A program made the position numbers and the translations under genes. 64,000 nt of DNA, taken from contig JAFQOE010000058.1 in assembly GCA_017395635.1 (NCBI GenBank), forward strand, positions 156,202 to 220,201. The letters run 5' to 3'. Below the pieces are notes generated by a model. That model was not told the origin of the DNA and did not search any database. It saw nothing but the letters and a program-made list of their open reading frames with translations. Source of the DNA: Lachnospiraceae bacterium. GTDB lineage: Bacteria > Bacillota > Clostridia > Lachnospirales > Lachnospiraceae. Of the stretch, positions 17,482-29,225 are shown piece after piece. Each line of letters starts with the position of its first letter. Within the stretch, counting starts at the first letter, position 1.

Positions 17482-17499
17482 TAATCTAGTTTTGTAAAG

Positions 17500-17752
17500 G
17501 TTGTGAGAAAGAGGAGTAGAAGTTGTTCCTTGTCAGAGAGAATGATTCACCGGCTGTAAGATCATTTCAAGAAGAAGACTTTGAAGGTAGCTTTTGAACT
17601 GCATGGCTGAGAAATGAATGTACTAGATACGTTTAATGTAGGTCATGACGGATTCGTCCACGTTATAGGATAAGAGAAGTGAGAAATTAAGGTGGTACCG
17701 CGTATATTCGCCCTTTATCAGGAAGTCCTGATAGAGGGCTTTCTTTGTTTTA
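17500..17752 (+). ncRNA. T-box riboswitch controlling valS
   Basis: The conserved T-box sequence AAGGTGGTACCGCG is at 17689-17702, followed by a terminator stem (GCCCTTTATCAGGA with its complement, 17710-17740) and a T-rich run. Upstream, a Stem I with the distal GGCTGTAAGA loop lies near 17553-17564. A GAAGGTAGC segment follows at 17583-17591; the GTA at 17587-17589 fits the valine specifier codon, read by eye from the usual position. Uncharged tRNA-Val would stabilise the antiterminator and allow valS transcription. The specifier call is less certain than the T-box call. Confidence 0.92.
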
Positions 17753-20740: not shown

Positions 20741-21310
20741 ATGGGATTATTGGATCGATTAATTAACAAAGGTGCCAGAGCACTTGGGGATGCGATGGCG
20801 GATAAACTTGTAGATACCATAAAAGGTGATAATGAGGTTGGCGATGCGTTTCGTAGCATGAAATCTGCGGTTACAGAGTTTGCAGAGACAACCATGAATG
20901 ATGTTCAGCAAAACATGCAGCAAAATTCACAAAACGATACAGAGGGTTATTCTTATGTAAAGGAAAAAAGCTTTGAGGAAAAGTTGCAGACGATTTTGGA
21001 AAATGCCGGTAATTATGAAGTCAGAAAGAACATTTCACCGGATGAGTTGGAAATGGAGTATGGTCAGCAGATATATGCAAGAGGTGGTAATTTTGCTGCG
21101 CCGGAACTCATCACATATGGTATTTATAAAGATGGTTACCTTGCATTGTATGTGCGATATTGGGATGTCTATAGAGAATACAATCGCGCTGCGAATCGTC
21201 AGATTAAGCAGTTTTGTGATGGAAATGGAATTAAAATGCTGGATTTCTTTGACTATCTTCCGAATGAAGAAAGTTATATGGATCAGAGAATTCGAGAACA
21301 ATTAGTGTAG
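20741..21310 (+). CDS. Hypothetical protein, cytoplasmic
   Basis: 189 residues after a strong AAAGGAGG five bases before the ATG. The N-terminal half is helical and Gln/Asn-rich (VQQNMQQNSQND). The C-terminal half is mixed alpha/beta (ELITYGIYKDGYLALYVRYW). There is no signal peptide and no membrane segment. I do not recognise a family. It lies 51 bases after valS, may be read from the same transcript, and is followed by a post-stop hairpin repeat. Confidence 0.75.
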   Translation: MGLLDRLINKGARALGDAMADKLVDTIKGDNEVGDAFRSMKSAVTEFAETTMNDVQQNMQQNSQNDTEGYSYVKEKSFEEKLQTILENAGNYEVRKNISPDELEMEYGQQIYARGGNFAAPELITYGIYKDGYLALYVRYWDVYREYNRAANRQIKQFCDGNGIKMLDFFDYLPNEESYMDQRIREQLV

Positions 21311-21356: not shown

Positions 21357-21401
21357 GAATAATGAAGCGCTATAATTCGTCGATATGACGTGTAATAGTA
21401 T

Positions 21402-21571
21402 AAAGGAAAGAGAAACGCAATTAGATTGCATCTGTGGTGGACGAAGCATATTCTATCTGTTATGGTAAGTAACAGATTGCCCGATAGCAGGTTTTACAGA
21501 TGACAGGAATATGTTCAGTCTGGTAGAAACAAGCACGCTTTGTTTCCTTCAAAGTTATTTCTCTTTCCTTT
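21402..21571 (+). ncRNA. Candidate structured RNA upstream of the reverse transcriptase
   Basis: A 170-base segment closed by a perfect 14-bp inverted repeat, AAAGGAAAGAGAAA (21402) with TTTCTCTTTCCTTT (21558). Inside are a hairpin ATCTGTTA/TAACAGAT (about 21455-21477), an enclosing helix built from GGACGAAGCATATTC and GAATATGTTCAGTC, and a hairpin GAAACAA/TTTGTTTC (about 21525-21546). I see no ORF of note in it. Before insertion of the palindromic element just downstream it would have ended about 90 bases before the reverse transcriptase start. That layout is common to retrons and to DRT defence systems. That it is transcribed, and functions with the RT, is inference. Confidence 0.5.
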
Positions 21572-21574
21572 TTA

Positions 21575-21803
21575 TATTGTTGTTACTAGGTGTTTGCGAA
21601 ACTCAAGTTGGTATTGTAATGCTTGTGCAAATTTAATACACCAACGCAGGACGTTTGCACTTGCCAGAATGCGTAACGGTACTAAGTTCGACAAAGTCTC
21701 ACTAAGTACCGACGGATTGTGAAGCACCTGCTTATGGTGTTGTTAAACTTGCACAAGGCAATGACAGTTTTTACGAGTTTCGCAATTGCCTATTGTTGTT
21801 ACT
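21575..21803 (+). mobile_element. Palindromic element A with 13-bp target-site duplication
   Basis: The body (21588-21790, 203 bases) begins AGGTGTTTGCGAAACTC and ends GAGTTTCGCAATTGCC, sharing the inverted terminus TTGCGAAACTC. Inner arms also pair (TTGTGCAAATTTAA with TTAAACTTGCACAA; CACCA with TGGTG). The core CGTAACGGTACTAAG to CTAAGTACCGACGG is shared with copies at 17.8 and 52.8 kb. TATTGTTGTTACT occurs directly repeated at 21575-21587 and 21791-21803, as expected of a target-site duplication. It has no coding capacity, so it would be a non-autonomous, MITE-like element. Confidence 0.7.
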
Positions 21804-21877
21804 TATATTCAACAAGGGGTGTTGTGTTTATGAATTTCGCAAACTCTTAATGAAAACCAAAATAAGAAAGGAAACAT

Positions 21878-23116
21878 ATGAACATATTAGATTCTCTATA
21901 TGAAGAAAGAACTTGGCAGGGATTTTTGCAATACAAGATAGAAAAGCAGCATTTGTCCGGTAAAGAACAAAAGCAATTAGAGGACTATATTCATGAGAAG
22001 ACGTACTATCCTCTTTTGAAGGAAATGGAACAAGAGAAGTATGAGTTTCCGATTCCAATGAAAAAAGAAATCAACAAGGGTGGAACATCAAAAAAACGGG
22101 TTGTATACTCTTATCCTGATGATTTTAATACGCTTCTCAAAATCATTGCATTTTCCATGTATAAGTATGATGGAATATTTTCAAATAATTGTTATGCATT
22201 TCGCCGCAATTTTGGAGTGAAGGATGCAATGAAACGGATTCGCAACACAAAAGGAATATCAAAGAAGTATTGTCTGAAGGTGGATATCAGCAATTATTTT
22301 AATTCAATTGATGTTGCTATGTTGTTGGAAAAGCTTATCTTTTTGAAAAGGCAAGATGCAAACCTGTATGACATGTTTGAAAGAATATTAACCGCAGATA
22401 AGGCGGTTGTGTGTATGGAAAAAGATTCTATGCCATCGGGGAATGTTGTGGTGGAAGAGAAGAGAGGTGCTATGGCCGGGATACCGATTTCTCCTTTTTT
22501 TGCTAATGTATATTTGGTGGAGTTGGACCGTTATTTTGAAGAACAAGACATACTTTATTTTCGGTATTCGGATGACATTTTGATCTTCGCAGATTCTATA
22601 GATGATTTGAAGCAATATCAAGAAATTTTATATAACCAGATTGCAGAGCATCATTTATCCCTTAATCCGTCAAAGGTGCAAATTAGTACTCCGGGTGAGA
22701 TGTGGGAATTTCTTGGTTTCTGCTATCGGAATGAGCAGGTGGATTTATCCGACAATACAAAGCGTAAGATAAAGGGAAAGATAAAAAGGAAAGCGCAGGC
22801 ACTTCGCAGATGGCAGGAGAAAAAGGGCTTGTCCGGTGATAAGGCTGCAAAAGGTTTTATCAAGGCTATGAATCATAAGTTTTTTGATTGTGGTGACGGG
22901 ACAGAATTTTCATGGACTCGATGGTTCTTTCCCAATTTGACAACGGCAGACGGATTGGCGGAGATTGATGTTTATATGCAGCAATATATTCGTTATTGTG
23001 TTACAAGCAGACATTATAAAGGAAATTATCGTGTTACTTATGAGCAGATGAAGGAATGGGGATATCGGAATCTGGTGCATGAATATTATGCACATAAAAA
23101 TGAGAAACTTTCTTGA
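21878..23116 (+). CDS. Reverse transcriptase, stand-alone, unassigned group
   Basis: 412 residues. RT motifs in order: KKRVVYSYP (fingers), CYAFRRNFG, KVDISNYFNSID with the first catalytic Asp at about 136, AGIPISPFFANVYLVELD (motif 4), FRYSDDILIF with Asp232-Asp233, LNPSKVQ, and WEFLGFCY at the thumb. A C-terminal ~110-residue extension (YMQQYIRYCVTSRHYKGNY) is helical and has no endonuclease or maturase-X signature that I can see. The active site is complete. It uses YSDD, not YADD, and I do not see the NAXXH and VTG motifs of retron RTs, so it is not a standard retron RT. It has no group II intron features. A terminator follows directly. AAAGGAAA precedes the ATG. Confidence 0.88.
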   Translation: MNILDSLYEERTWQGFLQYKIEKQHLSGKEQKQLEDYIHEKTYYPLLKEMEQEKYEFPIPMKKEINKGGTSKKRVVYSYPDDFNTLLKIIAFSMYKYDGIFSNNCYAFRRNFGVKDAMKRIRNTKGISKKYCLKVDISNYFNSIDVAMLLEKLIFLKRQDANLYDMFERILTADKAVVCMEKDSMPSGNVVVEEKRGAMAGIPISPFFANVYLVELDRYFEEQDILYFRYSDDILIFADSIDDLKQYQEILYNQIAEHHLSLNPSKVQISTPGEMWEFLGFCYRNEQVDLSDNTKRKIKGKIKRKAQALRRWQEKKGLSGDKAAKGFIKAMNHKFFDCGDGTEFSWTRWFFPNLTTADGLAEIDVYMQQYIRYCVTSRHYKGNYRVTYEQMKEWGYRNLVHEYYAHKNEKLS

Positions 23117-23133
23117 CAGGTTTCTCATTTTTT
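23100..23133 (+). terminator. Rho-independent terminator overlapping the reverse transcriptase stop
   Basis: GAGAAAC (23102) pairs with GTTTCTC (23120), followed by a T-rich run. The stop codon lies in the loop. Confidence 0.8.
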
Positions 23134-23234
23134 ATTATAATTCACTTTAAAGCGTTAAAGCTTTAAAACGTAGACGTATTAAAGCTTGAATGCAAAATGT
23201 TAATTATTACAAGAGAAGAGGGAGAAAAAAGAAA

Positions 23235-28909: not shown

Positions 28910-29225
28910 GACTTTTAAAATGGACGAAAAGTCTTTCTGCGAATGTTAGGACACTCATAAAAATATTATAAAATTTGCTAGACTCTACGGATATAAGATT
29001 TTCTATGCAGTTCCTTTTATGCATGGAAACCGTTCGGGGCGGCTGAGATGCGCCATCCATGGCTGACTCAGCCTTATGCCAACGTCCTGTTGGCATATCC
29101 CTAGTTTATATATAGGAACTGCGAGAAAATCTAATATCCTTCGAGAGGGCGCAAATCTTTATAATAATTTTTATGTCGTGTCTATTCACATGTTTGTAGA
29201 AGGACTTTTCTTTTTTTTGAAAGTC
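28910..29225 (+). repeat. 316-base palindromic element with a structured centre
   Basis: Two arms of about 105 and 111 bases pair with each other. The left arm (28910-29014) includes GAAAAGTC, CATAAAAAT, GGATAT, AGATTTTC and GCAGTTCC, and the complements of these occur in reverse order at 29115-29225. The 100-base centre contains GGCTGAG/CTCAGCC (29041-29073) and a perfect hairpin ATGCCAAC-GTCCT-GTTGGCAT (29076-29096). There is no ORF of note. Its sequence differs from the 17.8/21.6/52.8 kb family but the design is similar. It could be a MITE or a large structured RNA. Confidence 0.65.

Follow-up and report, generated by a model that had tools for sequence, protein, structure and literature searches.

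The window analysed here, a 64,000-nucleotide stretch of the genome of a gut bacterium of the family Lachnospiraceae (assembly GCA_017395635.1, contig JAFQOE010000058.1, positions 156,202–220,201), contains a three-part cassette. The gene of a 189-residue protein, designated protein X (20741–21310, recovered by iterated profile search), is followed by a non-coding RNA (ncRNA) of the Rfam family RT-5 (21399–21574) and by the gene of a 412-residue reverse transcriptase (RT) of group UG26 (21878–23116). All features of the cassette lie on the forward strand. X, the RNA and the RT tend to occur together across genomes, a pattern that suggests one molecular machine. We consider it fairly likely that they constitute a single ribonucleoprotein system of the UG/defence-associated RT (DRT) type, similar to class 2, whose most likely role is anti-phage. 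By analogy with the UG systems studied so far, this machine probably makes DNA as a defence against phages.

The RT is encoded by a complete open reading frame (ORF) with an RVT_1 domain and a YSDD catalytic motif at residues 230–233 (22565–22576), in agreement with the original prediction, which was made from the DNA letters and had proposed a stand-alone RT of a non-retron group, either different or uncharacterised. The group assignment is borne out by a match of 533 bits over residues 1–408 to the PADLOC model RT_UG26, which PADLOC describes as a DRT; the UG classification is reportedly that of Mestre and others (2022). The description as stand-alone does not hold, since a third gene, that of X, goes with the RT at most loci of the family. 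The next PADLOC models are the general RT (120 bits), UG27 (111 bits), UG17 (102 bits) and Drt9 (93 bits). In an alignment of 40 of the 41 RTs (A2; the window RT is included and the partial L069 was left out), R229, Y230, D232 and D233 are invariant, as are W346, F351, D364, R372, Y388 and G395 in the C-terminal part, where Tyr388 (23039–23041) belongs to a C-terminal extension. The conserved C-terminal tail contains Tyr403-Tyr404 (23084–23089), a candidate protein primer: tyrosine occupies position 403 in 33 of the 40 RTs, and at least one tyrosine lies between this position and the RT end in all 40.

An AlphaFold2 model of the RT built from eight sequences (mean predicted local distance difference test score, pLDDT, 87.6) has as its closest solved folds the GsI-IIC intron RT (E 4e-17), DRT9 (9vma, E 4e-14) and G2L4 (E 1e-13), while the profile of A2 matched the DRT9 entry 9ioa at E 3e-23. 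The first place of GsI-IIC, together with a match of 111 bits to the group II maturase model TIGR04416 of NCBIfam, could be taken to mean that the RT is a degenerate group II intron maturase preceded by a chance structured leader. However, the TIGR04416 match falls far below its cut-off of 300 bits and below the 533 bits obtained with UG26, so that the RT does not group with maturases, an outcome that the prediction had named as a check. Group II intron RNA is not among the RNAs listed by cmscan for the window, and the conserved RT-5 RNA stands in its place. The covariation of this RNA and its linkage to the RT, described below, also speak against a maturase origin, which we consider extremely improbable. 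A retron-like arrangement, in which the RNA would be an msr-msd giving one branched multicopy single-stranded DNA and X a retron effector or toxin, is suggested by the order protein–RNA–RT and by weak similarity to retron RTs. Yet the NAXXH and VTG motifs are absent from the window RT by regular-expression search, as had been predicted (VTG is present in some relatives, L002 and L033, within the C-terminal extension), the NCBIfam model of retron St85 scores 66 bits versus a cut-off of 235, and Rfam names RT-5 and no retron family. We therefore regard a retron as very unlikely.

The segment upstream of the RT was identified by cmscan as RT-5 (RF03026; core 21426–21560) with 46.9 bits versus a cut-off of 45.7, and our own model, R1, matches 21399–21585; the exact RNA ends given above are inferred. 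The Rfam score is modest; the window copy has a 28-base insert relative to the Rfam model, which costs score, and RT-5 RNAs of relatives reach up to 92.7 bits. The 170-base segment at 21402–21571, predicted earlier to be structured and closed by a perfect 14-bp inverted repeat, has a folding energy of −53.6 kcal/mol versus −35.8 ± 3.9 kcal/mol for shuffled sequences (z −4.61; 0 of 200 as low). Both features stand: the closing stem P1 pairs 21402–21415 with 21558–21571 without a mismatch, covaries and is followed by a T-rich tail after its 3′ strand (17-nt arms at 94% in the inverted-repeat search). Inside it, hairpin P2 (21417–21429) has double changes in 5 of 5 pairs and 85% of cells paired. 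Stem P3 (21438–21453 with 21507–21522) has 92% of cells paired and 9 of 13 pairs double-changed, and encloses a variable insert and the covarying hairpin P4 (21490–21505). P5 (21526–21546) is separated from P1 by a single-stranded UUCAAAGUUA (21548–21557) with a conserved UUYAA. When the window copy is folded by itself, the P4 region is paired differently at minimum energy. The Rfam RT-5 model, which has 104 positions, either does not reach P1 and P2 or includes them only at its unpaired edges.

The helices covary in an alignment (A3) built without structure from 26 of the 30 cmscan-positive RNAs (window and 29 loci): 88.3% of 1007 cells are paired versus 73.3 ± 0.8% when shuffled and 43–48% when slid, and 34 of 40 pairs are changed on both sides. 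The four RNAs left out (L010, which has a long insert, L015, L025 and L032) all keep, by eye, the pseudoknot described below; the long insert, seen in the RNA of L010/L039 (G332) between P3 and P4, contains an internal tandem repeat. Across 46 RNAs, the UUYAA(A)G stretch has T at −2 in 46, T at −3 in 41 and G at +3 in 34; the invariance of its AA is by construction, because AA served as the anchor. A conserved ORF start within the RNA was also considered. Several RNAs have GAGAAAUG at the relevant site, whereas GAGAAACG is found in the window and AACGC or AAAGC in other RNAs; this candidate was rejected because of these differences.

The 5′ strand of the pseudoknot, AUCUGU (21430–21435), follows directly after P2 and pairs with ACAGAU in the loop of P4 (21496–21501). 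All 156 cells of this 6-bp helix are paired in the 26 RNAs, with double changes in 6 of 6 pairs; its commonest form is GCCUGC pairing with GCAGGC. In the ten RNAs from other bacterial families, which were not used for training, the pseudoknot was found in eight by script and in L145 and L146 by eye, the script having missed the latter two because its filter required TT or TC ahead of the loop strand. The structure line of RT-5 in cmscan has no pseudoknot, although Rfam's own notes may still mention one, because a covariance model cannot hold it. The discovery paper of RT-5, said to be that of Weinberg and others (2017), may also mention one. The pseudoknot and the three-part linkage appear to be new, while the RNA family and the RT group were already known; both the pseudoknot and the upstream X gene had escaped the original prediction. 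In the non-subscription literature searched, we found no study of UG26 function, nor any of RT-5 RNA, the pairing of UG26 with RT-5 or protein X. UG26 is merely named in cold-seep viruses (PMC10504277).

The association between the RNA and the RT is close. In two sets of homologues, which together make up 30 loci, the Rfam model was found near the RT at 14 of 14 loci (12 at or above the cut-off) and at 15 of 16 (all 15 at or above it), the single miss (L027) being cut by a contig end. Our own RNA model found the RNA at 36 of 41 RT loci, namely, the 26 training loci and 10 of 15 untrained ones. The misses comprise L044 (35 bits with Rfam, below the cut-off), L058 (contig end; in this genome the RNA and X lie near the end of another contig) and the most diverged RTs, L067, L068 and L070. 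When 397 genomes of the family were searched with strict filters, under which weak matches may be lost, the RNA was found in 33 (E ≤ 0.01) and the RT in all 33 of these. Outside the family but within the same class, 14 of 291 genomes matched, two of them already counted, and 10 of the resulting 12 untrained UG26 loci have the RNA. At one locus, L142, the RNA lies ~1.2 kb from the RT, and no forward ORF of at least 80 residues is found between them except one that overlaps the RNA. RNA and RT distances correlate over 24 loci (r 0.65; 0 of 2000 permutations as high). Conservation and covariation of the upstream segment next to RT homologues, which the prediction had put forward as a check, were thus found.

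Protein X consists of an N-terminal segment with MGLLDRL and a C-terminal alpha/beta domain. A hidden Markov model that started with 14 BLAST seeds and grew by iteration to 29 members (E < 1e-3) places X at 29 of the 41 RT loci. In BLAST clustering of neighbours, X recurs at 24 loci, generic ABC transporters at 12 and any other family at no more than five. At the 28 loci with both X and the RNA, X ends 0–107 bases before the modelled RNA; at L057 the order is RNA–X–RT. Among the 397 genomes, the X profile (25 proteins) matched 27. The RT is present in 26 of these as well; in the remaining one, G119, the match to X is weak (E 2.7e-7). The hypergeometric value for this co-occurrence is 6e-31, which is not a true probability because the genomes are related. 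X and RT distances correlate over 24 loci with r 0.85, a value that none of 2000 permutations attained. Twelve of the 41 loci have no X; contig ends truncate two of these (L037 and L058), and three (L067, L068 and L070) lack the RNA as well. Loci with X do not form one clade on the RT tree, on which 7 changes are counted, at least 4 of them forced by supported branches; we read this scattered pattern as repeated losses.

No Pfam family, SLATT included, was matched at cut-off by any of 25 X proteins, and the search for solved relatives by sequence found none (best E 0.53). The structural model of X, built from three sequences, has a pLDDT of 65.5 overall and below 55 up to residue 70; from residue 81 onwards the values are mostly 71–87, with a dip to 57 at 111–120. 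In this predicted model the C-terminal half has the order helix-strand-helix-strand-strand-helix-strand-helix. The best Foldseek match is the restriction enzyme EcoT38I (E 0.027, probability 0.87), with nothing reaching E 0.001. Lower matches, with E above 1 and among unrelated rows, include VRR_NUC (4qbn, E 1.6, TM-score 0.63 by target length), I-Bth0305I and TnsA. All four are PD-(D/E)XK enzymes. The catalytic D...(D/E)XK residues are not conserved in the alignment of X (A1; 25 of the 29 proteins), where only M1 and R183 are invariant and N175 and Y179 nearly so. Because a conserved catalytic triad is lacking, we consider X nuclease-like and probably inactive. Its C-terminal half weakly resembles PD-(D/E)XK nucleases and would probably be a catalytically dead fold of this kind, which serves as a lead.

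How the cassette could work is suggested by UG enzymes that have been studied. In the class 2 UG systems studied so far, an ncRNA made in cis templates repeat cDNA (PMC13174585, PMC12632851). A comparable system among them is UG17, i.e. DRT10, which consists of an ncRNA, a SLATT protein and an RT (PMC12632851). The two systems share a three-part composition, an ncRNA that is shut by a closing stem and has an unpaired segment downstream of its last hairpin, and a conserved hydroxyl residue in the RT tail, and L057 has the DRT10 order of RNA, protein and RT. On the other hand, X does not match SLATT at the Pfam cut-off, the usual order here is X–RNA–RT, an A-B-A′ repeat is not significant here and the RT has only 102 bits to the UG17 model. 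DRT9 (UG28) is similar in its cis-encoded ncRNA, in its C-terminal tyrosines and in the profile (9ioa) and fold (9vma) matches, but no conserved poly-U template was seen here and the RT scores 93 bits with PADLOC Drt9.

By extension, the UG26 RT would bind the RNA made in cis and produce repeated DNA copies of a short stretch of it, like DRT2, DRT3a, DRT9 and DRT10. The likeliest template would be the UUYAA(A)G stretch that separates P5 from P1; its position is comparable to that of the DRT10 template, which lies in a loop immediately following a stable stem-loop (PMC12632851). The likeliest primer would be a tyrosine in the C-terminal tail of the RT itself; tyrosines at the C-terminus prime synthesis in DRT9 (PMC12483538), and a serine or tyrosine there does so in DRT10 (PMC12632851). 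X, for its part, may bind the RNA, the RT or the DNA product, and regulate or execute the response. In the most specific form of this reading, which we put forward tentatively as one possible scheme, the cassette would be a new type of tripartite anti-phage system: the pseudoknotted, telomerase-like RNA would present UUYAAAG to the tyrosine-primed RT, which would make self-tethered repeat DNA, and the dead nuclease-like X would read this DNA, or its loss during infection, and trigger the response.

Several observations weigh against the main reading, in which the three parts form one ribonucleoprotein system. First, the UG26-like L067, L068 and L070 as well as L072 and L073 from viral contigs have no RNA match, and UG26 is thus not uniform; L071, the third UG26 locus from viral contigs, has no match either, but its contig starts 54 bases upstream of the RT. 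Second, X is absent at seven uncut loci that keep the RNA (L041, L042, L043, L044, L056, L060 and L063; the RNA of L044 is a sub-threshold Rfam match, the other six were found by our own model), and in other families it is present at 4 of the 12 loci and absent at 8, so X is not always needed. Third, correlated distances alone cannot separate joint transfer from shared descent. Fourth, among solved folds the RT is closest to a group II intron RT, with DRT9 ranking second. Fifth, all 10 window neighbours tested belong to ordinary cellular families. Finally, the A-B-A′ swap test, in which composition is kept, gave p values of 0.12 (36 RNAs), 0.19 (10 new RNAs) and 0.08 (all 46); among 18 RNAs not of the UUC type, 147 of 2000 swaps did as well. 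By eye, a repeat around UUYAA had seemed to be present in many RNAs, L051, L065 and L038 among them, and a first swap test had given 219 of 2000 (p 0.11). As none of these tests is significant, we make no claim of an A-B-A′ repeat. With this result, and with the low count of DRT2-like frames given below, templating and defence are inferred here and are not results.

The failed swap test bears directly on a different reading, in which the RNA is a scaffold or activator and not a template: the pseudoknotted RNA would hold the RT inactive or assemble it, and the RT would make untemplated or protein-templated DNA, like class 1 UG enzymes. No conserved homopolymer or dinucleotide template was seen in the RNAs listed either, and the strongest signal of the RNA, covariation, is structural. 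Yet the class 2 UG enzymes examined to date take an ncRNA in cis as template, and those of class 1 possess an alphaRep domain (PMC13174585); the RT here, 412 residues long, matches UG17 and DRT9 best among the named systems. A scaffold role is accordingly unlikely in our estimate, but it deserves more weight than the other alternatives. A rolling-circle mechanism similar to DRT2, in which head-to-tail copying of the RNA would create a gene on demand, would fit an RT with a cis-encoded ncRNA of comparable kind. Against it, an open frame was found in 8 of 36 head-to-tail concatemers of the whole RNA, a count with no random-sequence baseline and with an internal template outside the test, and RNA lengths are scattered over all residues modulo 3. 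We give this mechanism very little credence.

The genomic context bears on whether the preferred class-2-like system acts in defence. The cassette is flanked in the window by valS, located behind a T-box, and by a sodium:solute symporter gene. These ordinary surroundings, and the fact that the recurrent clusters of neighbours showed no integrase, might indicate a domesticated regulatory or stress system with a DNA product acting in gene regulation. Other features are at odds with domestication. The distribution of the RT is patchy, with homologues at E ≤ 1e-40 in 37 of the 397 family genomes, the window's own included, and in a genome of the same genus another ORF sits between the same two neighbours. 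Furthermore, 2 of 10 downstream neighbours tested at other loci, out of 38 available, are defence-like, one with TIR and one with FRG (a random sample of ten, in which the neighbour of L068 was replaced by that of L049). We consider a regulatory role improbable, if somewhat less so than the retron and rolling-circle readings.

The two named relatives that were found are also from Lachnospiraceae. Among 50,697 phage and 72,556 plasmid records, no place covers 80% of the RT query. A search of viral contigs with the single RT protein found no relative; with the RT alignment it yielded 31 loci, mostly distant. Five of these were classified: L071–L073 as UG26 (312–327 bits), and L074 and L077 as UG27. 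At the 31 viral loci, the RNA model gave nothing convincing (one match, 20 bits) and the X profile nothing. Some of the divergent loci have surroundings of their own. In L071–L073, where RT-5 and X are unmatched, each RT is followed by an apparent cold-shock protein gene (by eye). L067, L068 and L070, which lack RT-5 and X, lie near large ABC transporters whose sequences start, by eye, like those of peptidase-domain bacteriocin exporters; upstream of the RT of L067, the reading frame stays open for 2.6 kb.

Between the RNA and the RT, the window contains a palindromic repeat (21587–21792, forward strand; inverted repeat I3), which the original prediction had taken for an insertion. Queried with 21580–21860, the bacterium's own genome returned 61 BLAST matches at ~40 distinct places, its own place included (40 of 84 first-look candidates scored); copies are ~205 bases long and some are truncated. 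The element is a member of a dispersed family and lies outside the cassette. Once its ~205 bases are removed, ~100 bases separate the RNA end from the RT start, close to the ~90 that had been predicted. At 26 of 36 loci, the gap between the end of the RNA model and the RT start is at most 60 bases. In L033, a similar hairpin core is seen by eye between the RNA and the RT. The promoter search called no separate promoter in the interval between X and the RNA in the window. Across loci, a 9-of-12 promoter match within ~50 bases upstream of the RNA is present at 11 of 36 versus 7% of shuffles, which is suggestive of a separate RNA promoter at some loci only.

Elsewhere in the window, the T-box leader ahead of valS (17494–17718) scores 102.3 bits with Rfam; at L002 a T-box has 90.4 bits, just under the cut-off of 93. 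Within 23113–23167, a perfect TTGACA-17-TATAAT promoter overlaps the end of the RT gene. The 33-base stretch that follows (23135–23167) is 97% identical to one ahead of the symporter gene in G188 and is possibly an operator. A TwoAYGGAY RNA is located on the reverse strand at 28982–29146 (100.7 bits).

Telomerase RNA, like the RNA described here, has a pseudoknot. The likeness to telomerase is by kind only, and the A2 profile has a weak match to TERT (E 1e-6). With X, the RNA and the RT, the cassette is a defined system of ~2.4 kb that can be cloned and tested. Its pseudoknot, being of the telomerase-RNA kind, is relevant to the suggestion that class 2 UG enzymes and telomerase are linked (PMC12632851).

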